This document shows, piece after piece, positions 52,845 to 63,702 of a DNA stretch of 64,000 nt. Source of the DNA: Anaerolineaceae bacterium (lineage in GTDB: Bacteria > Chloroflexota > Anaerolineae > Anaerolineales > Anaerolineaceae); assembly GCA_016841365.1 (NCBI GenBank), contig JAENZI010000005.1, forward strand, positions 1 through 64,000, given 5' to 3'. The position numbers and the translations under genes were made by a program. The notes beneath the pieces are model-generated. The model worked only from the letters and a program-made list of their open reading frames with translations, had not been told where the DNA came from and made no database searches. Each line of letters starts with the position of its first letter. Position 1 is the first letter of the stretch.

Positions 52845-55800
52845 ATGTCCATTCGAAATCTTATTATCCTAAGCCAATTAAATCCGCCATCACAACGGCG
52901 CAACGTTCTCAACCGTGTCCGGGTCAATGACAGCCTGAGGCAATCTGGTAATTATTCTTTGACCATTTTAGAAGCAGGCACGGGTTACGGTAAGAGCACT
53001 GCCTTGTTGTCATTCCTGAATGAATTAAAGCACCCGGTCTACTGGTTTACGATATCGGGATCAGATCGTGACCCGAAATTATTCCTGGCAAAATTGTTTT
53101 CTGCCTTCACCCAGCGCAGCGCCACTGCAGGTGAGGAGGCGTTGCGTATTCTGGATATGCCCGAATCAACCACACAGGAAGCTCTGATTGCGTTTGTGAA
53201 CGATCTATCAAGGAAAATTGACGAGGATACGTTATTTGTTCTGGATGATTTTCACCGTGTGAGAGATATCCCTGAAGTGATGGGATACATGGATTGGTTA
53301 ATCGAGAACCTGCCATCGCATCTCCATTTGCTCATCGCCACCCGTCACAACCTTGAATTCAAGAACATCAATAAGTGGCGGTTAAAAGGCCGGCTGTTGG
53401 AAATCAAAAAAGACCAATTAATCTTTACCGGTGAAGAAATTGATGCACTTTTTCAAACCCACTATGGCATTACATTGACTGAAAAGGATATCCAAACCTT
53501 GCTGCACCTGACGGAAGGCTGGGCGATTGGGCTTCAAATGGTCTGGCAAACTTTGCAGAGCAATCCAAGTATGAACATTGACCAAGTTGTTGAGGAAAAT
53601 CGACCATCCAGAATGGCATTATTTCAATATTTGGCTGATGAAGTATTTGAAGGTTTGGATGAAACGCGCCAAAACTTCTTGAGAGATACTTCTATCCTCT
53701 CAAAACTGGATAGCAGCACCTGCGATTTTCTCTTAAATATAGAAAACAGCGATAAGATCCTGCCAAAACTTCATAACGCAGGTTTGTTCATCGAGGAATT
53801 GCGCCCCGGAGTTTATCGCTATCATCAGATGTTTAGAGAATTTTTAAATAATCGTCTGCAGCATCAACCAGAAAGGGCAAAACTTCTCCACCGGAAAATA
53901 GCCAGTTATTTCCAAGCACATGAATATTGGGAAGAGGCGATTTACCACCTTATTTCTGCACAGGATTATCATCAAATTAATCAAGTCCTTGAAAATATTG
54001 GCAATAAACTGATCAATGAAGGGCGCCACGAATCGATTAATTACTGGATTCATGAAATCCCGGAAGATATTCGCAAAAATTATCCGCATATTCAACTTCT
54101 CCTTGGCGAGGTGAATCGTTATTTGGGGCATTTTGAAGAGGCTTTGGAACATTATCATGTTGCGGAACGCCTTTACCGCAATGAGGATAATCGCTGGGGC
54201 ATTTCAATGGCTCTAAAGGGTCAGGGACAGGTGTTCTTAGATACCATTCGACCGATAAATGCAGACCAACTCCTACAGGATGCTTTAAAACTGCTTGACC
54301 CGAAAGAAATGAAAGATGAGGTTGCAGATTTACTGGTTCTGACAGCAGAAAATCAGCTTAATCTTGGTTATCCGGATAGTGCAGAAAAACTGCTTTCTCA
54401 AGCCAGCGGATTACGTTCTCAATTCGACAGGGAAACTGACTTGATCCAGGCACGTGTATTCTTGCGGACAGGCCGCCTTCAACAAGGGATTGAACTCCTA
54501 AAATCACGAGAATCAAAAACACAGACCCTTCCAACCTCGCGACCCCAGCGGTTTCACCGGGAAAGTCCATTGCTTTTGTCGCTTTTTTACTCCATCATTG
54601 GTGAGGTTGACAAAGCGGAATATTATGCAAAACAAGGGATCGAGTACAGCCGCTTACTGCAATCGACATTTGTGCAATCAGTTGGAAATATGCGGCTGGG
54701 TCATGCCATTTTGCTGCAATCCCAACATCCATTCAATAATCACGGATTTGAACAAGCAATCATTAATTTTCGAGAATCAATTGAAAGGATCGATGTTGTC
54801 CGCATCCACGTTGAGCCGTTATGGGGGATGTGCCGGGCTTTTGGTTACACCGGGCAACTCTCCGGGGCACAGGGCTTGGCTGAAGAGTCGCTGGTAATTG
54901 CGGAAAAAGCCGGTGATGAGTGGATTAGCGTATTGATTAACCTGTCGATTGGTGCTGGCGCAGTTTTGGTTGAGGATTTTGACACTGCCCAGCTCTATTT
55001 AACGTCTGCGGAAGTGTCCTCGCTCAAAGTAAAAGACACTTTTACACTTTGTGTTGCACGACTGTGGTTAGCGCTCAAAGCATATAAACAGAAATTTAAT
55101 AACACTGCGTATTCCTACTTGGAAAAAATGCTGGTGTTAATCAATCAACATGGATATGAATTCCTTCTCCAAAAAGAAACTTTGATGGGGTTGAAAGACC
55201 CTGAAATGATTTACCCATTGCTGATCGATGCTCTTATGAATAATATTGAACCGGCTATTGTCAAAGAGCTGATCAAATCTCGCGGCTTGGAAGAAGGTTC
55301 ATTCCATCCTGGTTACACACTTTGGGTCCAAACCTTTGGGAAATTCCGGGTTTGGCGCGGGGATGATTTGATTGCGGCTCAGGATTGGAAACGTGAAAAA
55401 TCACTCCAGCTCTTTCAGCTATTGGTCGCTAACAGAGATAAGTGGCTGCATCGAGACCAAATCAATTCCATCTTGTGGCCGGAAAATCCGGTAGATGATA
55501 CGTCAAACTATCTGAAAGTGATCTTCAACACGCTTAACCAAATCCTCGAACCTGAAAGACCACGCGGTGCAGTTACCTTTTTTGTCGAGCGACAACAGGA
55601 ACGCTATCGGTTAAATCCTGTTGCAAGAATTATCGTCGATGCTGATTTGTTCGTAAACGAAATTGAAAAAGGAACCGAATCTGCGCTTGAACGGGCGATA
55701 AACCTCTACGAAGGCAGCTATTTTGAAAATTGTTATGTTCAGGAATGGCTAACTATTGAGGAGCAGTATTACCGACAAAACTTCTTAACGAATGCCGATA

Positions 55801-56048
55801 ATCTGGTTAATCTAAAAATTAATAACGGCGATTATGAAACTGCTCTTGAGCTGACCTATAAAATTCTTACGGTTGATCAATTGTGGGAACCTGCTTATCG
55901 AGCTCAGATGAGGATATTTAATGAAATGGGGGAAAGTGCAATGGTGAGAGAAGTCTTCACAAAATGTGAGGAGGTTTTATCCTCGCAGATTGGCAGCGAA
56001 GTATCCTCTGAAACCCAACAACTCTATGAAACCTTAAAAAACGGCTAA
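52845..56048 (+). CDS. Large MalT/SARP-type transcriptional activator (ATPase, TPR, winged helix, BTAD)
   Basis: A 1067-residue regulator. An AAA/STAND ATPase lies at about 25-330 with Walker A EAGTGYGKST (near 43) and Walker B LFVLDDFH (near 130); then helical repeats of TPR type (about 350-800); then a winged helix of OmpR type (WVQTFGKFRVWRGDDL near 823, DQINSILWPENPVDDTSNYLK near 870) and a bacterial transcriptional activation domain, BTAD (DADLFVNEIEKG near 927 to the end). ATPase-TPR parts sense a ligand in MalT-like proteins, and the winged helix plus BTAD is the SARP DNA-binding unit, here at the C-terminus. The adjacent acyl-CoA operon carries a SARP-like operator, so it is the likely target. 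Confidence 0.9.
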   Translation: MSIRNLIILSQLNPPSQRRNVLNRVRVNDSLRQSGNYSLTILEAGTGYGKSTALLSFLNELKHPVYWFTISGSDRDPKLFLAKLFSAFTQRSATAGEEALRILDMPESTTQEALIAFVNDLSRKIDEDTLFVLDDFHRVRDIPEVMGYMDWLIENLPSHLHLLIATRHNLEFKNINKWRLKGRLLEIKKDQLIFTGEEIDALFQTHYGITLTEKDIQTLLHLTEGWAIGLQMVWQTLQSNPSMNIDQVVEENRPSRMALFQYLADEVFEGLDETRQNFLRDTSILSKLDSSTCDFLLNIENSDKILPKLHNAGLFIEELRPGVYRYHQMFREFLNNRLQHQPERAKLLHRKIASYFQAHEYWEEAIYHLISAQDYHQINQVLENIGNKLINEGRHESINYWIHEIPEDIRKNYPHIQLLLGEVNRYLGHFEEALEHYHVAERLYRNEDNRWGISMALKGQGQVFLDTIRPINADQLLQDALKLLDPKEMKDEVADLLVLTAENQLNLGYPDSAEKLLSQASGLRSQFDRETDLIQARVFLRTGRLQQGIELLKSRESKTQTLPTSRPQRFHRESPLLLSLFYSIIGEVDKAEYYAKQGIEYSRLLQSTFVQSVGNMRLGHAILLQSQHPFNNHGFEQAIINFRESIERIDVVRIHVEPLWGMCRAFGYTGQLSGAQGLAEESLVIAEKAGDEWISVLINLSIGAGAVLVEDFDTAQLYLTSAEVSSLKVKDTFTLCVARLWLALKAYKQKFNNTAYSYLEKMLVLINQHGYEFLLQKETLMGLKDPEMIYPLLIDALMNNIEPAIVKELIKSRGLEEGSFHPGYTLWVQTFGKFRVWRGDDLIAAQDWKREKSLQLFQLLVANRDKWLHRDQINSILWPENPVDDTSNYLKVIFNTLNQILEPERPRGAVTFFVERQQERYRLNPVARIIVDADLFVNEIEKGTESALERAINLYEGSYFENCYVQEWLTIEEQYYRQNFLTNADNLVNLKINNGDYETALELTYKILTVDQLWEPAYRAQMRIFNEMGESAMVREVFTKCEEVLSSQIGSEVSSETQQLYETLKNG

Positions 56049-56060
56049 CTAACCAATATT

Positions 56061-56104
56061 TGTAACCGCCCCGTAACCTGTTTGTAATTCTCAGTTGATA
56101 TACT
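56061..56104 (+). promoter_or_regulatory. SARP-type operator and promoter of the acyl-CoA operon
   Basis: Three direct repeats, TGTAACC (56061-56067), CGTAACC (56072-56078) and TGTAATT (56083-56089), begin exactly 11 bp apart. If the unit is taken as GTAAYYN, the last ends at 56090 and 8 bp separate it from a TATACT -10 box (56099-56104). There is no good -35 box, and the repeats lie where it should be. Known SARP sites have heptamer direct repeats with 11-bp steps and 8 bp to the -10. That the upstream SARP-type protein binds here is inferred. Confidence 0.7.
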
Positions 56105-56177
56105 GATGATGAACAATGACCCATTTTGTTCAATTATCACGTCTATTCAGTAAATAACAAATTTCAGGAGAGTCAAA

Positions 56178-56942
56178 ATGCGTTTAAGGGACAAAGTTTG
56201 CTTGATTACAGGCGGCGCGGCTGGTATTGGAAAAGCAACCGCTGAAAAATTTATTCGCGAAGGTGCACAGGTGGTGATCTGCGATGTTGACCAGGAAGCC
56301 GGCCAGGCTGTTGCAGAAGAACTGGGCAATGGCACCTTATTCTATCAAGTTGATGTGACCAACCGTGAAGCGGTTCAAGCCTGGGTTGATGATGTCGTTG
56401 CGAAATTGGGACGCGTTGATGTATTGGTGAATAACGCCGGGATCACTCGAGATGGCCTCTTCATTAAATACAAGAATGGCGAGTTGGTCGGGCAAATGTC
56501 CGAAAAGGATTTTGACCTGGTCATTGCAGTGAACCTCAAGGGTGTGTTCAACTGTGCACAAGCCGTTACTCCGCAAATGATCTCACAGGGTGGGGGAGTT
56601 ATCCTCAACGCCTCTTCCATTGTTGGGCTTTATGGGAATTTTGGCCAGACCAATTATGCTGCGACTAAATTTGGCGTGATTGGCATGACAAAAACCTGGT
56701 CACGTGAATTGGGCAAATACAATATCCGGGTCAACGCAATTTGCCCTGGTTTTATTTTAACTGAGATGGTTCAGAAAATGCCTGAGAAGATTTTAGAAGG
56801 TTTAGCAGCTAAAACTCCTCTGGGACGAATGGGAACTCCTGAAGATGTGGCAAATCTATATTGCTGGCTTGCCAGTGATGAAGCAGCTTATATCCATGGC
56901 GCAGCGATCAGCATCGACGGCGGTATGGTGTTGGGTACGTAG
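56178..56942 (+). CDS. Short-chain dehydrogenase/reductase (3-oxoacyl-ACP/CoA reductase-like)
   Basis: A 254-residue classical SDR: cofactor motif TGGAAGIGKATAEKF, NNAGITRDGLF, catalytic Ser in LNASSIVG and YAATK with the Tyr-Lys pair, and NAICPGFILTEM. The layout is that of FabG, but in this operon it may reduce a 3-oxoacyl-CoA rather than an acyl-ACP. AGGAG precedes the start codon. It is first in the operon behind the SARP-type operator. Confidence 0.92.
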   Translation: MRLRDKVCLITGGAAGIGKATAEKFIREGAQVVICDVDQEAGQAVAEELGNGTLFYQVDVTNREAVQAWVDDVVAKLGRVDVLVNNAGITRDGLFIKYKNGELVGQMSEKDFDLVIAVNLKGVFNCAQAVTPQMISQGGGVILNASSIVGLYGNFGQTNYAATKFGVIGMTKTWSRELGKYNIRVNAICPGFILTEMVQKMPEKILEGLAAKTPLGRMGTPEDVANLYCWLASDEAAYIHGAAISIDGGMVLGT

Positions 56943-56990: not shown

Positions 56991-57998
56991 ATGGCACGTT
57001 ATGGAACAATTATTGGCACTGGGCGTTATGTGCCTAAAAACGAAGTTTCTAATGAGACTTTTGCTGAATGGATGGGTGAAATCAGCCCTAAATTGGCTGA
57101 AGTTGTGGGGAAGTTTGAAGACAGTTCAAACATAAAAACCCGGTTCTATGCAGATGAGGATATGACAACCTCAGACCTGGCAGTGGAAGCTGCAAAAGAA
57201 GCGCTCAAAGATGCAGGGATCACCGCAGATGATGTTGACTTAATCATTCTCGGCACGGACTCCCCGGATTACATTACACCTGCCACATCTGTTGTTGTGC
57301 AGGAGAAGTTGGGGGCGAAAAAAGCAGGCACATTTGATGTGGGTTGCGCCTGTGCTAGCTTCCCGACCGGGCTTGCATTAGCCGCAGGGTTGATCAGCAC
57401 AAACCCAAATCTACAATATGTCTTGGTGATTGGCGCCTATATGATGCATCGCTTTGCAGATGTAAAACACGATGTGATCAGCTTTTTCTATGGTGATGGC
57501 GCTGGTGCTGCGGTTGTTGCCCCGTCGGAGGAACCAGGATTTATTTCATCCACATTCTTTGCTGATGGTTCATATTATAAGCACTGGGGTATTTATGCGG
57601 GCGGTGCTGCAGAGCCGGCAACGGTTGAAAATGTGAAGAGTGGAAAAACGCAGGTCAAGTTGGTCACACCATTCCCTGCTGAAGTAAATAATGAGGGCTG
57701 GCCAAAACGCATCCGGGAGGTTGCGGAAAACGGTAATTTTGCGATCGAGGATATTGATTTCGTTATCTTCACACAGGTCAGGCTTAACAGCATAAAACTT
57801 GTGATGGAGGAGCTTGGTTTGCCGCTTGAGAAAGCCCATTGGATCATGGACAAATGGGGCTATACCGGATCCGCCTGTTTACCGATGGCCTTCGATGATG
57901 CTCGCAAACTTGGCAAAATCAAATCTGGTGATTTGGTTGTGTTCATTGGATCAGGTGTTGGCTATAACCAGGCAGGTGTCGCCTTTAGAATGCCGTAA
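56991..57998 (+). CDS. FabH-like thiolase-fold protein lacking the catalytic His and Asn
   Basis: A 335-residue KAS III-like protein with IIGTGRYVPKNEVSN, the active-site cysteine in CACASF (aligned with E. coli FabH C112), FYGDGAGAAVV and GSGVGYNQAG. Aligned with E. coli FabH, the catalytic His244 (VPHQAN) becomes Thr in IFTQVRLN, and Asn274 (GNTSAAS) becomes Tyr in GYTGSAC. Since His and Asn drive decarboxylation of malonyl-ACP, a classical condensation is unlikely; Cys-only homologues are known to act as acyltransferases. The role here is inferred. It follows the reductase by 48 bp. Confidence 0.88.
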   Translation: MARYGTIIGTGRYVPKNEVSNETFAEWMGEISPKLAEVVGKFEDSSNIKTRFYADEDMTTSDLAVEAAKEALKDAGITADDVDLIILGTDSPDYITPATSVVVQEKLGAKKAGTFDVGCACASFPTGLALAAGLISTNPNLQYVLVIGAYMMHRFADVKHDVISFFYGDGAGAAVVAPSEEPGFISSTFFADGSYYKHWGIYAGGAAEPATVENVKSGKTQVKLVTPFPAEVNNEGWPKRIREVAENGNFAIEDIDFVIFTQVRLNSIKLVMEELGLPLEKAHWIMDKWGYTGSACLPMAFDDARKLGKIKSGDLVVFIGSGVGYNQAGVAFRMP

Positions 57999-58015
57999 TC
58001 ATGGGAGTCGATTTT

Positions 58016-59332
58016 ATGGAAACAAAAGAACAATATCGGGACAAATATATCTCAGTTCAAGAAGCGGTATCTAAGGTCAAATCTAATCAAACCATTGGGA
58101 TTGGGATCGCAGGCGCTGAACCTGTAGGACTGCTGACTGCTATGGCTGAAGTGGCGATGAATGTCGAAAACGTCCATTTTTGGACATGCCTTCCCATGCG
58201 GCCGTATGATATCTTTCTGAAGCCCGAAATGGCAGGCCACATTTTCAACGAGAACTGGTTTTACAGCTACACAGACCGACAGGTTCACAGTGAGGGGCGG
58301 GTTTCGTATATTCCCAACAATCTCAACCGGGCCTCTACGGATAAGCTGTTTTCGACCAAAGGCAAATTGGATATCTTTTGGGGGACAGCGACTCCACCTG
58401 ACGAAGATGGATATATGTCGCTTTCACTCGGCATGATCGTTCAGAGAGACCTGCTCGAGGCGGCTGACCTAAAGGTGCTTGAAATCAATGAGAACTTACC
58501 CTTTACCTATGGTGACACTTTAGTGCATATTTCGGATGTGGATTTTGTCGTTGAAAATCATGTCCCCCTCGTTGAATTGCCGTCTACACCGCCCAGCGAT
58601 GTGGAACAACAAATTGGCGGATATATTGCTGAATTGATTGAGGATGGTTCTACCATTCAACTGGGCATCGGGGGTATACCGAATGCGATCACAGCCTTCA
58701 TTATGGAACGCAAGGATCTTGGGATCCATACAGAGATGGTTGTGGATGGAATGGTTGATTTGATCAATGCAGGTGTCGTCACAAATAAGAAAAAGACACT
58801 GCATCCCGGCAAGACGATTGGTGCTTTTGCCCTGGGCACAAAGAAATTGTACGATTATTTGGATCACAACAAAGATGTTGAAATGTATCGCGGCCACTAT
58901 ACCAACGATCCCTATGTGATTGCCCAAAACAACAAGATGATCTCCGTCAATACGGCGTTGCAGGTTGACATTTTGGGGCAGGTGTGCTCGCAGAGCATAG
59001 GCACCCGGCAGTTTAGCGGAACAGGCGGTCAACTGGATACACATCGCGGGGCTCAAATGTCTGAGGGAGGGCGCGGAATCATTGCGCTTCGGTCTACCGC
59101 TAAAAACGGAAGTATTTCAACGATTGTACCAACACTGGCACCCGGCGCTGGTGTGACAGTGCCCAGCCAGGACGTGGACACCATCATTACCGAATTTGGT
59201 GTTGCTGAATTACGCGGTCTGTGCGTGAAAGATCGGATGGAAGCGTTAATAAAGATCGCCCATCCCAATTTCAGGGATTGGATCCGTGATGAAGCACATC
59301 GCCTGGGTATCGTGCCCAAAAACCAGTTTTAA
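58016..59332 (+). CDS. Acetyl-CoA hydrolase/4-hydroxybutyrate CoA-transferase family protein
   Basis: A 438-residue member of the CoA-transferase family with QLGIGGIPNAI, a GIHTEMVVDGMVDLINAG segment (the family's catalytic glutamate is expected here, near residue 239), FSGTGGQLDTHRGAQ and FGVAELRG. It moves CoA between an acyl-CoA and a free acid, or hydrolyses acyl-CoA. The start at 58016 has GGGAG upstream; an ATG at 58001 is in frame but overlaps this site. The substrate is not shown by sequence. Confidence 0.88.
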   Translation: METKEQYRDKYISVQEAVSKVKSNQTIGIGIAGAEPVGLLTAMAEVAMNVENVHFWTCLPMRPYDIFLKPEMAGHIFNENWFYSYTDRQVHSEGRVSYIPNNLNRASTDKLFSTKGKLDIFWGTATPPDEDGYMSLSLGMIVQRDLLEAADLKVLEINENLPFTYGDTLVHISDVDFVVENHVPLVELPSTPPSDVEQQIGGYIAELIEDGSTIQLGIGGIPNAITAFIMERKDLGIHTEMVVDGMVDLINAGVVTNKKKTLHPGKTIGAFALGTKKLYDYLDHNKDVEMYRGHYTNDPYVIAQNNKMISVNTALQVDILGQVCSQSIGTRQFSGTGGQLDTHRGAQMSEGGRGIIALRSTAKNGSISTIVPTLAPGAGVTVPSQDVDTIITEFGVAELRGLCVKDRMEALIKIAHPNFRDWIRDEAHRLGIVPKNQF

Positions 59333-59344
59333 GAGGAGGTAGAA

Positions 59345-59653
59345 GTGAACGATCTCATTGGAAAATGGGTGCAGGTAGAAGGTCAGCCCTACGAAGGGCT
59401 TTGGTTTGAATTCAACAAAGACGGTACTTTCAAAGCGCAATACGATCCGATGTCCATCGAATCATCAGGCACTTATGAGCTCGGACAGGGTGAGATCATC
59501 ATGCAGCAGACGACCCATACTTTTGGGATGGTGGGCGAATTCAAGGGCATTTTTCAGGTCGAAGAAGATCAGTTAAAAATGGCTCTAGCGAGTGGTCCTG
59601 GGCAGGAAGGCCCCGAGGATCTTTCAGAGGCTCGAATTTATCAAAAGGAATAG
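59345..59653 (+). CDS. Small beta-rich protein of unknown function
   Basis: I do not recognise a characterised family. The 102-residue protein (GTG start, AGAGGAGGT just upstream) has no signal peptide or membrane helix. It opens LIGKWVQVEGQPYEGLWFEFNKDGTFKAQYD and continues with alternating beta-strand-like segments, a pattern of small lipocalin-like or calycin-like proteins. It lies between the CoA-transferase and the thiolase genes, with 12 and 15 bp gaps, so it belongs to the operon. Confidence 0.75.
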   Translation: MNDLIGKWVQVEGQPYEGLWFEFNKDGTFKAQYDPMSIESSGTYELGQGEIIMQQTTHTFGMVGEFKGIFQVEEDQLKMALASGPGQEGPEDLSEARIYQKE

Positions 59654-59668
59654 AGATAGGTGAATGGC

Positions 59669-60934
59669 ATGAAGAATCATAAATGGTCCAGAGGCGTTGC
59701 AGTTGTTGGGGCAGGCATGAGCAGGTTTGGTGCTTTTGCGGATAAAACCTCGCGTGATCTTTTCGTTGAAGCATATCAGGAGATGAAGAGCAGCATTGAT
59801 AAGGGATTTGATCCTGATCGGATCGATGCCTTTTATCTTGGCAATTTTAGCAGTGATCAATTTGAAAAGCAGGCACATCTGGCACCGATCCTGGCAAGTT
59901 GGATCGGATTATCACCAATTGCATCTGTCCGCGTTGAAAACGCATGCGCCAGCGGCGGTATTGCCATCAGGCAAGCGGCATTGGCAATTGCATCTGGCGA
60001 ATATGACGTGGTGCTCGTTGGCGGTCTGGAAAAAATGACTGATTTGGACATATCTGCAGTGACAGAAGCATTGGCGACTGCGGCAGACACCCAATTCGAG
60101 ATCCCAGCCGGGTTTACTTTCCCGGGGTTTTATGCCGCAATGGCAACAGCCTACATGGCAGAGCATGGTGCGCCCCGAGAAGCATTCTATCATGTGAGCA
60201 TTAAAAACCATGAAAATGGTGCGCTAAATGACAAAGCTCAATTTGGTCAAACGATCAAACAGATCATGGAAAGCAAGAAAAAACGTGCAGAAGAGAAGGG
60301 CCGTCCAGTTCCTGAATGGCAAAATGAAATTGAATTTCTGAGCGATCCCAAAGGGAACCCAAACATCGCCTGGCCGATGGCTTTGTTTGATTGTTCTCCC
60401 GTATCCGATGGCGGTGCGGTAGCATTGCTGGTTGCGGAAGACATCGCCAAGGAATTCACAGACACACCTTTGTATTTAATTGGCAGCGGACAAGCCAGTG
60501 ATGGCGCATTGCCAGATCGTGAGACACTTGCCTCAATCCCAGCTGCGGAAGCGGCCGCTAAACAAGCCTATGCGATGGCTGGGCTCACACCGGATGATAT
60601 TGATCTTGCAGAAGTGCATGATTGTTTCACCATCGCTGAAATTATGGCGATTGAAGACCTTGGTTTCTTTCCTCGTGGGGGAGGCTGGAAAGCTGCAATG
60701 GAAGGCAAGACAGCCCGTGATGGTGAGCACCCGGTAAATACATCGGGTGGTTTGAAAGCAAAAGGGCATCCTGTGGGCGCTTCTGGCGTCGGACAGCTCA
60801 ACGAAATCTGGAAACAACTGCGCGGTGTTGCAGGTGCACGCCAACTCCAGGGCAATCCCCGGATCGGTTTAGCCCACAATGTGGGCGGTTCTGGGCAAAC
60901 ATGCGTTGTCAATATCTTTGAACGGAGAGACTGA
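59669..60934 (+). CDS. Thiolase of the SCP2/archaeal-like class
   Basis: A 421-residue thiolase. The acyl-accepting cysteine is in VENACASGGIAIRQAAL, the histidine is in AKGHPVGASGVGQ, and the C-terminal loop is NVGGSGQTCVV instead of the CxGxG of biosynthetic thiolases, which places it with SCP2 and archaeal thiolases. EVHDCFTIAEIMAIEDLGF is also seen. It makes or splits 3-oxoacyl-CoA. ATG at 59669 with AGGTGA upstream is preferred to a GTG 9 bp before. The neighbouring DUF35 gene is the usual partner of this class. Confidence 0.92.
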   Translation: MKNHKWSRGVAVVGAGMSRFGAFADKTSRDLFVEAYQEMKSSIDKGFDPDRIDAFYLGNFSSDQFEKQAHLAPILASWIGLSPIASVRVENACASGGIAIRQAALAIASGEYDVVLVGGLEKMTDLDISAVTEALATAADTQFEIPAGFTFPGFYAAMATAYMAEHGAPREAFYHVSIKNHENGALNDKAQFGQTIKQIMESKKKRAEEKGRPVPEWQNEIEFLSDPKGNPNIAWPMALFDCSPVSDGGAVALLVAEDIAKEFTDTPLYLIGSGQASDGALPDRETLASIPAAEAAAKQAYAMAGLTPDDIDLAEVHDCFTIAEIMAIEDLGFFPRGGGWKAAMEGKTARDGEHPVNTSGGLKAKGHPVGASGVGQLNEIWKQLRGVAGARQLQGNPRIGLAHNVGGSGQTCVVNIFERRD

Positions 60935-60935
60935 G

Positions 60936-61352
60936 ATGAGTGAATATACACTAACCAGTAAAAACTTCTACAAAGCACTCAAACAAAAGCAATTAATTGG
61001 ATCCAAATGCCAGGTTTGCGGTAGCTATGCGATCCCCCAGCGCCAAATCTGCCCGAAATGCCATTCTGATCAAAATGAAATAACAACATATGTTGGTTCG
61101 GGTACTTTGAAGGCTTTCACAGTGATCTTTGTGCCACCTGTCAAAATGGCTGAGGCAGGATACAACGCAAAGAACCCCTATTGTGTCGGCATTGTTGAAT
61201 TGGATGAGGGACCCAGGATTTCTGCACAAATATTGGATGTTGACATATTGCAGCCTGAAAATATTAAAATTGGCACAAAGATGGAAATGACAACCATAAC
61301 GCGTGGTGAAGAAGCCGATCAGACCACCTTCTTAGCATTTAGGCCAGCCTGA
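60936..61352 (+). CDS. DUF35 zinc-ribbon/OB-fold protein
   Basis: A 138-residue protein with the zinc knuckle CQVCGSYAIPQRQICPKCHS near residues 25-42 and an OB-fold after it (TYVGSGTLKAFTVIFVPP, CVGIVELDEGPRISAQILD). In archaea such proteins bind between a thiolase and HMG-CoA synthase and form a channel for CoA intermediates. It starts one base after the thiolase stop, so the same partnership with the thiolase is expected. Confidence 0.93.
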   Translation: MSEYTLTSKNFYKALKQKQLIGSKCQVCGSYAIPQRQICPKCHSDQNEITTYVGSGTLKAFTVIFVPPVKMAEAGYNAKNPYCVGIVELDEGPRISAQILDVDILQPENIKIGTKMEMTTITRGEEADQTTFLAFRPA

Positions 61353-61371: not shown

Positions 61372-62190
61372 ATGCCAAAAGCCAAAGTGAACGGAATCAA
61401 CATTTATTACGAGTTATCTGGGCCTGAAGATTCACCGGTGTTGGTGCTCTCAAATGGCATCATGATGAGCACTGCCAGTTGGGCACTTCAAAATCAGGTT
61501 TTGAACAAGCACCTGCGTGTGTTACTATATGATTGCCGCGGTATGTGGCAGTCCGACCATCCAGAGCAGCCTTACTCAATGGAACAACACGCCGATGATT
61601 TAGCAGCCCTGCTGGATTTTTTACGCATCGATCAGGCACACATCGGCGGCATCTCCTACGGTGCTGAAATCAGTATGGTCTTTGCACTAAACTATCCCCA
61701 AAAGACACAATCTTTGATTGTGATCGACGGTGTCAGTGAGATCCATCCACTTTTAAAAGCACAAACCATGCCCTGGTTGATCGCGGCACAAAAAAATGAC
61801 CCAGAACTACTTTTGAAAACCTCTTACCATATGAATTTCGGTGAAGATTGGATCATTGCAAACCAGGCGTTCATCGACAGTTCGGTGGAACGGTACGCTG
61901 CAATAGATATGGGGGCGTTTGAGCGGCTGATGGAGTCATTTTATACACTCGATATTACTGCCCGACTGAAAGAAATTTCAGCGCCAACATTGGTGATCGC
62001 TGGCGAGCAGGATTTGATAAAAGGACGTGAATACGCAGAAATAATCGCAAAAGGAATTCCGGGCAGCGAATTGGTGCTTGTACCTCGATCAGGCCACGCA
62101 CTATGCCTGGATAAACCAGCTGAATTAAATACTTTGCTGCTGGGATTTGTTATGAAGTACAGAAACCCCATAATAAAGGAGGTGAGTTAA
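61372..62190 (+). CDS. Alpha/beta hydrolase (enol-lactonase-like)
   Basis: A 272-residue alpha/beta hydrolase: VLVLSNGIMMSTASW (oxyanion segment), GGISYGAEIS with the nucleophile serine, VIAGEQDLIKGREY with the acid and RSGHALCLDKP with the histidine. It resembles 3-oxoadipate enol-lactonases in length and layout, but this cannot be proven by sequence. It sits 19 bp after the DUF35 gene and closes the enzyme part of the operon. Confidence 0.87.
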   Translation: MPKAKVNGINIYYELSGPEDSPVLVLSNGIMMSTASWALQNQVLNKHLRVLLYDCRGMWQSDHPEQPYSMEQHADDLAALLDFLRIDQAHIGGISYGAEISMVFALNYPQKTQSLIVIDGVSEIHPLLKAQTMPWLIAAQKNDPELLLKTSYHMNFGEDWIIANQAFIDSSVERYAAIDMGAFERLMESFYTLDITARLKEISAPTLVIAGEQDLIKGREYAEIIAKGIPGSELVLVPRSGHALCLDKPAELNTLLLGFVMKYRNPIIKEVS

Positions 62191-62256: not shown

Positions 62257-63702
62257 ATGAAAAAGGCACGTTTAATAATTTTGACCATGCTGGTCATCAT
62301 CCCGCTGCTTGTGACCTCTTGTGTTCAGCAAGTGACCGAGGTCCCAGAAGTGGAGACAGAAGAACCAGTCGTCGAAGAAACAGAAGAAATTGTTGAAGAG
62401 ACCGAAGAGGTCGTCGATGAGACTGAAGAAGTCGAAGAACCTGAAGAGACCGAAGTCGTCGAAAAAGAATTAGGTCCTGTGTTGAAGATCGGTCAGATCG
62501 GCCAGATGTCTGGTTTGATGGCGCTTTATGGTCTGCAGCAGCAGCGCGGCTTCTTGATGGGCTTGGAGTATATGTCCGGCGGTGAGATGGATGAAGAAGG
62601 CCGCTACATTATTGCCAATCGTCCGGTTGAAGTGATCGTCAAAGACGATGAAGGCGACCCTGAGAAAGCAGTTGCTTTAGCACTCGAACTGATCGAGCGT
62701 GATGGCGTTGAACTGATCCAGGGCCCAGTGTCATCAGCGGCAGCGATTGCACTGACCAATGTTGCCCTCGAAAATGAGATCATCCTGATGATCGATCCTG
62801 CGGCATCCTATTTTATGACCGGTGCATACTTCAATCCCTACGTTTTCCGCACCTCTCGTACCAGCTTTGATGATACTTTGATCATCGCCAAGTACCTGGT
62901 CGAAAATGTCGGACCTACCTTTGCCCATATTGGTATTGATAATGCCTTTGGTCAGGGTTCTGGTGCAGCTCTTAAGTACTCGGTTGAACAGTTTGGTGGT
63001 GAGCTTGTTGCTGATGTTTATGCACCTTTTGAAACAACCGACTTCACGCCATATATTCAGCAGGTAATGGACTCCGGTGCCGAGAATCTTTTCCTGACCT
63101 GGGCTGGAACCGGGTATGTAACCCTGTTCCAAAACCTGGCAGATATGGGCGCCTTGGAAGAAATGACTGTAGGCACTGGCTTTGGTGATAATGCATCTTT
63201 CGCAGCAGTGTTCGGCGAGCAGACCCTCGATTCGATTGGTCTTAATGTCTATCACTACACCGTTCCTGACAATCCAGTCAATGATTGGCTCGTGGAAAAT
63301 CACTTCAATCGCTATAAGGACGAAGCGGATGCCGCGATCAATGCCTATCCTGACCTGTTCACGGCTGGTGGTATGGCTTCCGCAATCGCATTGGCGACCG
63401 CGCTTGAGATGACCGGCGGCGACACCTCTGGTGAAGCGATGATCCCTGCACTTGAAGGCTTGATGTTTGAAGGCCCGAAAGGCACCTACCACATTCGCCC
63501 TGAAGATCATGTTTGTGAGCAGCCAATGAATATTCTGCAGCTTGTGAACCTGAATCCTGATCTGGACGGTGATGGGATCAATGAATACGAGTTCTTTGAG
63601 ACAATTTATGTTTCAGAGTATGACGAATTAGGTGTTCCCTGCACATTAGCAGGCGAATATGCTGACCGTTGTGGTGATTTGCCCACAATTCCGACTGAGT
63701 AA
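62257..63702 (+). CDS. Branched-chain-type ABC transporter substrate-binding lipoprotein
   Basis: A 481-residue lipoprotein with a signal peptide ending in the lipobox LVTSC (cysteine near 22), a very acidic Glu/Val-rich linker (about 25-70) and a type-I periplasmic binding fold of the LivJ/LivK class: ILKIGQIGQMSGLMALYGLQQQRGF, KDDEGDPEKAVALALELIERDGV, TFAHIGIDNAFGQGSG. The ligand may be an amino acid, a short-chain or aromatic acid; its place after acyl-CoA enzymes favours an acid. It is followed by a hairpin and then the ATPase gene. Confidence 0.92.
   Translation: MKKARLIILTMLVIIPLLVTSCVQQVTEVPEVETEEPVVEETEEIVEETEEVVDETEEVEEPEETEVVEKELGPVLKIGQIGQMSGLMALYGLQQQRGFLMGLEYMSGGEMDEEGRYIIANRPVEVIVKDDEGDPEKAVALALELIERDGVELIQGPVSSAAAIALTNVALENEIILMIDPAASYFMTGAYFNPYVFRTSRTSFDDTLIIAKYLVENVGPTFAHIGIDNAFGQGSGAALKYSVEQFGGELVADVYAPFETTDFTPYIQQVMDSGAENLFLTWAGTGYVTLFQNLADMGALEEMTVGTGFGDNASFAAVFGEQTLDSIGLNVYHYTVPDNPVNDWLVENHFNRYKDEADAAINAYPDLFTAGGMASAIALATALEMTGGDTSGEAMIPALEGLMFEGPKGTYHIRPEDHVCEQPMNILQLVNLNPDLDGDGINEYEFFETIYVSEYDELGVPCTLAGEYADRCGDLPTIPTE

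Follow-up and report, generated by a model that had tools for sequence, protein, structure and literature searches.

The rules for SARP promoters derive from actinomycete antibiotic clusters, and the locus considered here raises the question of whether a promoter of the same geometry serves, in Chloroflexota, a regulator with a MalT-like N-terminal half and an operon for acyl-CoA enzymes. The DNA under study, referred to as the window, is a stretch of 64,000 nucleotides of an Anaerolineaceae bacterium (G000:C12:1-64000), in which a sequence-only reading had placed a SARP-type operator at positions 56061-56104, directly before such an operon. That interpretation is supported, since each part of it that could be checked held, and the regulator-operator pair is conserved across the class and partly beyond it.

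Direct reading of the plus strand reveals GTAA three times, starting at 56062, 56073 and 56084 at exact 11-bp steps, within the repeats TTTGTAACC (56059-56067), CCCGTAACC (56070-56078) and the promoter-proximal TTTGTAATT (56081-56089). The first repeat is conserved in relatives, the second and third are also backed by the comparison of family promoters, and the third by a matrix scan as well. The third GTAANNN unit ends at 56090 and is separated by 8 bp from the -10 element TATACT (56099-56104, plus strand), also recovered in the family comparison. The arrangement lies in the intergenic stretch 56049-56177, between the regulator and SDR ORFs, which also contains the ribosome-binding site AGGAGAG (56166-56172, plus strand). 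Both the 11-bp period and the 8-bp distance agree with the published rule, according to which SARP promoters have direct repeats at 11-bp (or 22-bp) steps, the 3' repeat 8 bp from the -10 and a poor -35 (available text of PMC10936776). The site itself stands as proposed; its limits are better set at 56059-56104 than at 56061-56104, because the unit kept among relatives is the 8-9 bp of the TTTGTAACC type.

The window contains a single copy of the triple repeat, where shuffled sequences have 0.01 on average, and a single copy of the composite of repeats and -10 with one mismatch allowed, for which the shuffled mean is 0.06. The whole genome contains two triple repeats, the second of which, within an opposite-strand ORF, looks like a chance occurrence. 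With a matrix built from the family promoters (that of the window included), the operator was the sole match at a score of at least 8 on both strands of the window (29.3), its neighbouring 11-bp register scoring 13.6. The stretch 56059-56104 is very probably a SARP-type promoter, at which binding and activation are predicted.

The ORF directly upstream (52845-56048, plus strand) encodes a regulator of 1067 aa, with a MalT-like P-loop ATPase and TPR part at the N-terminus and a winged helix and BTAD at the C-terminus. Pfam finds AAA_22 and BTAD above, and TPR_MalT and Trans_reg_C below, cut-off, and NCBIfam MalT covers residues 7-525 with an E value of 3.4e-70, under its equivalog cut-off. A LuxR/GerE HTH was not matched by Pfam anywhere in the protein, the C-terminus of which contains BTAD instead, nor was a receiver domain, so that the regulator does not classify as an OmpR/PhoB response regulator. 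When the C-termini of orthologues were aligned (76 of the 106 listed ortholog stretches), BTAD was present in all 76 and Trans_reg_C in 56 (E 0.01 or better), and the profile of this alignment matched the AfsR SARP domain over the whole module (E 2.9e-18). The predicted structure of the window's module (residues 820-1067, encoded by 55302-56045, plus strand; an OmpR-type winged helix followed by BTAD) has a pLDDT of 96.1, and its comparison with known structures yielded Z 19.2 for AfsR (230 aligned, 3.2 Å) and 18.0 for EmbR, with 10.9 for the best plain winged-helix protein. From the Pfam, NCBIfam, profile and structure matches it follows that a MalT-like protein has here a SARP module in place of the LuxR-type DNA-binding part, as the earlier idea of a MalT-SARP chimera had it. 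The module forms the C-terminal end of the protein, whereas small and large SARPs have theirs N-terminally; because of this domain order the regulator is not a canonical large SARP, despite its SARP fold and predicted SARP-like working. The residues T88 and R92, which contact bases in the recognition helix of AfsR (available text of PMC10936776), are not kept, as mapped by eye on the profile alignment; such a change is to be expected with a different repeat, but makes the DNA contacts of the regulator uncertain.

The downstream genes, all on the plus strand, encode acyl-CoA enzymes as judged by Pfam and NCBIfam. The operon opens with an SDR/3-oxoacyl reductase-like gene (gene 1, 56178-56942) and a beta-ketoacyl synthase III (KASIII)/HMG-CoA synthase-like gene (gene 2, 56991-57998, with orthologues in relatives), followed by an acetyl-CoA hydrolase/CoA-transferase (58001-59332), a small protein with a weak DUF5640 match below the Pfam cut-off, which is retained in the operons of relatives (59345-59653), a thiolase of the SCP2/BbsB type (59660-60934), its OB-fold partner of the ChsH2/BbsA type (60879-61352, the real start being probably further in) and an alpha/beta hydrolase (61372-62190). 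The substrate-binding protein of a branched-chain-amino-acid-type ABC transporter (62257-63702; Pfam and neighbour loci) comes next, and the transporter ATPases and permeases, from G000:C12:63842, lie mostly past the window end. Gene order is conserved in relatives (SDR, KASIII/HMG-CoA-synthase-like, CoA transferase, small protein, BbsAB-like thiolase pair, hydrolase, ABC transporter), and the operon looks like a system for uptake and turnover of an acid via CoA thioesters.

Regulator and operon are co-inherited. Among the 147 genomes of the window's family, a regulator orthologue is found in 45, as counted from the match list, in which a clear drop separates paralogues of about 26% identity. 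Gene 2 of the operon is found in 49, which include all 45, and neither is present in the other 98 (Fisher p 1.4e-33, shared ancestry ignored). The operon is found with no detected regulator in G009, G051, G072 and G094 (completeness 77-88%) and likewise in the fragment G127.

Promoters could be compared for 46 of the 49 operon genomes and for G127 (47 in all), those of G072, G091 and G094 being cut by contig ends and left out, and the repeat register was set blind to the -10. All 47 have TTTGTAACC-like units spaced 11 bp apart, never fewer than two; by reading, 18 have three units and 29 have two (G134 was entered with two, the automatic copy count having given three). A hexamer beginning with TA is found exactly 8 bp past the proximal 7-bp unit in all 47, and TA...T at this gap in 38, with any other offset accounting for at most 3 of the 47. 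Information content is about 1-1.9 bit in the unit cores and mostly below 0.3 bit in columns outside the motif, and the conserved part of each unit, 8-9 bp, is followed by 2-3 free positions.

Conservation stops at the -10, and the start codon follows the latter at anything between 46 and 226 bp across the 47 promoters, while the spacing between repeats and -10 is fixed. Both features argue against the view that the repeats are no protein site but a remnant of the 3' part of the regulator gene or a feature of a leader RNA, a view that would account for the position of the site directly past the regulator stop codon in many genomes and is extremely unlikely, also because the site remains with the target operon where the regulator is elsewhere: in G084, G085, G086, G088 and G099, and in genera g5, g38 and g39, the SDR gene is not next after the regulator and the operator is still found before SDR.

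As in the Streptomyces rule quoted by the sequence-only reading, a good -35 is lacking: none of the 47 promoters has a usable one, the best match to TTGACA reaching at most 3 of 6 positions. This has consequences for the sign of the control. The same regulator could, on the same site, be a repressor, its bound copies obstructing RNA polymerase 8 bp ahead of the -10 and being released by a ligand, as the overlap of site and promoter would allow, but since there is no -35 in any of the 47 promoters, the promoter should be weak alone. Moreover, the SARP fold and the 8-bp rule accompany activation in AfsR (available text of PMC10936776), and PimR, a SARP-LAL protein with 11-bp repeat units, also activates (available text of PMC5930380), so that repression is improbable and activation is the preferred reading.

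Searches of the 147 genomes show where else the motif is found. A two-unit pattern with one mismatch allowed gave 40 matches in 39 genomes, 37 of them preceding SDR, against 6 matches for the reversed control. A stricter pattern that includes the -10 gave 40 matches in 38 genomes, 36 of them at operon promoters and 4 elsewhere; its reversed version gave about 38 scattered matches, and because the reversed control differs in base composition, the evidence lies in the positions of the matches, not in their totals. One operator-like site (G130:C58:15802-15820, L099) is found, with a gap of 7 bp, before a gene named acyl-CoA-dehydrogenase-like from its translation, and may mark a second target in that genome. 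Further sites in the family are found in G006, before an unrelated ORF, and in G060.

The regulator is present in 87 of the 396 genomes of the class. Of the 84 class matches outside the family, 9 lack the C-terminus on the contig and were excluded, and among the 75 others one had less than 120 bp downstream. This left 74 regulators, the downstream DNA of which was scanned with the matrix trained on the family only (threshold 6). A site scoring at least 6 was found for 40 of the 74, with a bimodal score distribution, against 1 of 74 on the reverse strand and 0 of 64 for the distant control. Retention of the repeats in orthologous loci, the loss of which had been named beforehand as the outcome speaking against the proposal, is thus seen in these 40 loci as in the 47 family promoters. 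Among 34 repeat-only matches from these other families, TA...T stands at gap 8 in 27, any other gap being represented at most 4 times. The scanned downstream stretch contained no site scoring at least 6 for 34 of the 74 regulators, of which L191 and L204 have a strict match near or past its end; regulators of the class with no adjoining site may control genes elsewhere. In G496, G525 and G516 the operator is found before a KASIII-like gene and not beside the regulator.

The gene following the site changes from locus to locus. It was taken, for the 40 class loci with a site, as the longest plus-strand ORF starting within 900 bp, which three loci lacked, and Pfam (threshold 1e-15 or, for one set, 1e-6) assigned the remaining 37 to KASIII (9), SDR (8), AMP-binding enzymes of the acyl-CoA ligase type (6), alpha/beta hydrolases (6), CoA transferase, biotin carboxylase and PhaC (1 each), with 5 showing no match. 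A separate observation is that in 15 of the 40 loci (e.g. L163, L164, L158) a small protein of about 70-110 aa, resembling SFILRFVQ...WHGVIRHVQSNEE, is encoded between operator and enzyme genes; the match lies at a greater distance in L192 and falls in a longer frame in L211, and Pfam gave no match for a 45-aa piece of one such protein.

In the phylum search 35 of 301 genomes matched, family ones included, and the DNA downstream of 24 regulators from outside the class was inspected (11 close orthologues, 13 more distant proteins). Six of the 11 close orthologues carry the operator, with the repeats overlapping the regulator stop codon, and in five of these six an acyl-CoA-ligase-like gene (named from translation) comes next. 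Two more genomes, G637 and G651, have the site at a place away from the regulator, again before this ligase-like gene; G742 also carries it in front of such a gene. An adjoining site is absent from the other 5 of the 11, and for G542, G665 and G785 none was found in the stretches read. The operator was found downstream of none of the 13 distant MalT-BTAD proteins (29-33% identity; L253-L265). In L241 (G542) another ORF resembling a SARP module (LRVQTLGGFCVWRDG...) comes directly after the regulator stop and may represent a duplicate of the DNA-binding part.

Sites of PhoB-type response regulators also consist of 11-bp direct repeats, and their winged helix is similar in overall fold (Z about 10). 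A different OmpR-family protein might accordingly bind the repeats, the MalT-SARP neighbour being incidental, and an OmpR-type response regulator gene is indeed found about 10 kb past the operon (L056). Against this reading, the site is found just downstream of MalT-SARP orthologues in different families and classes, with differing target genes, regulator and operon co-occur as described, and the response-regulator gene was not found in the operon loci of five relatives, L059, L060, L063, L064 and L065 (which extend no more than a few kb beyond the operon). In addition, because just four strict matches in the 147 genomes lie off the operon, no wider regulon of another factor is apparent. Binding by a PhoB-type protein is therefore judged distinctly improbable, and the adjoining MalT-SARP protein is preferred as the factor acting on the repeats.

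Its relatives and its own gene were also inspected. No 11-bp direct-repeat family was found near two weak paralogues in the same genome (C18, C19). Autoregulation was considered and rejected, as 20 of 22 regulators scanned upstream scored below 0 and the matches of the other two, L007 (14.3) and L012 (10.0), are weak or ill-formed. In six further loci (L051, L052, L053, L054, L108 and L109) a paralogous MalT-BTAD regulator (about 25% identical) is followed by a signal-peptide-like ORF of 35-48 aa, ending in ...FVLAAGAP..TGT(I/V)GG or similar, with a gene for a small protein behind it. The two small proteins compared with Pfam gave weak matches, below cut-off, to Os1348, a RiPP family of the NHLP clan (E 8e-8 and 4e-4), and 12-bp direct repeats of the TTTTGAAGCCTG or GCATCCTGTTTT type are found upstream of the peptide ORF in most of the six. 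These loci may represent a peptide-signalling or RiPP module.

We conclude, with a probability of roughly 0.85, that the acyl-CoA operon has a MalT-SARP activator of its own, which recruits RNA polymerase to it and usually has no other target, the binding and activation steps being inferred. A signal, most likely a pathway substrate or an acyl-CoA intermediate, would reach the MalT-like ATPase/TPR sensor part; of the steps proposed, the action of an acyl-type ligand via the MalT half carries the greatest uncertainty. The 11-bp repeats would then be occupied by two or three adjacent SARP modules, each in contact with roughly the first 8 bp of its own unit, and these modules would substitute for the absent -35 by bringing sigma region 4 and RNA polymerase to the -10, a sigma adaptation as in AfsR. 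The operon for SDR, KASIII, CoA transferase, thiolase, hydrolase and ABC transporter, usually the sole target in the genome, would thereby be switched on. This mode is proposed because the conserved part of each unit, with its 2-3 free positions, and the lack of a -35 match what is described for AfsR, which touches each 11-bp repeat over its first 8 bp, forms a side-by-side dimer over the -35 and offers a new docking place for sigma region 4 (available text of PMC10936776).

With AfsR, the large SARP of Streptomyces coelicolor, and its afs box, the system shares the winged helix and BTAD over the whole module, the 11-bp direct repeats (the first 8 bp being contacted in AfsR), the poor -35, the 8-bp rule, and ATPase and TPR domains as additional parts (available text of PMC10936776). 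It differs in the reversed domain order (ATPase-TPR first, SARP module last), in the repeat TTTGTAACC and other recognition-helix residues, and in belonging to Chloroflexota rather than Actinobacteria and to an acyl-CoA operon rather than antibiotic regulation. In PimR and the SARP-LAL proteins a SARP is likewise joined to a large LuxR-type ATPase half and acts on one target gene, and the main PimR operator has three heptamers with 4-bp spacers; in the available text of the same source that operator has a different heptamer and is described with no -35 overlap (PMC5930380), and the SARP part is N-terminal in PimR whereas it is C-terminal here. E. coli MalT and the LAL regulators have the N-terminal ATPase and TPR region in common with the window regulator (NCBIfam MalT), their C-terminal LuxR-type HTH being replaced in the latter by the SARP module. 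EmbR of Mycobacterium tuberculosis shares the winged-helix-BTAD fold (Z as above), but has a C-terminal FHA domain and no MalT half.

In the titles and abstract openings of the open-licence PMC literature, no characterised MalT-SARP or MalT-BTAD regulator of Chloroflexota was found, which does not prove that none has been described. The present comparison likely defines a phylum-wide Chloroflexota MalT-SARP family with its own conserved SARP-type promoter, in which the -35 would be replaced, by sigma adaptation, outside Actinobacteria for primary acyl-CoA metabolism, and in the course of evolution the regulator-operator pair would have been connected to one first gene after another (SDR, KASIII, acyl-CoA ligase, hydrolase, CoA transferase) with repeat, period and 8-bp spacing fixed. 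Genome comparison follows the SARP promoter geometry into a second phylum, where it occurs in a metabolic context and beside a regulator of inverted domain order. Because a site of the same spacing is kept beside the same regulator, the scheme that activates antibiotic genes in Streptomyces probably also runs ordinary metabolism in another phylum, which suggests that the replacement of the -35 by a winged-helix-BTAD module predates antibiotic control or has a wider distribution. An operator motif is now in hand for the MalT-SARP family, providing a short route to the prediction of target genes in the mostly uncultured Chloroflexota.
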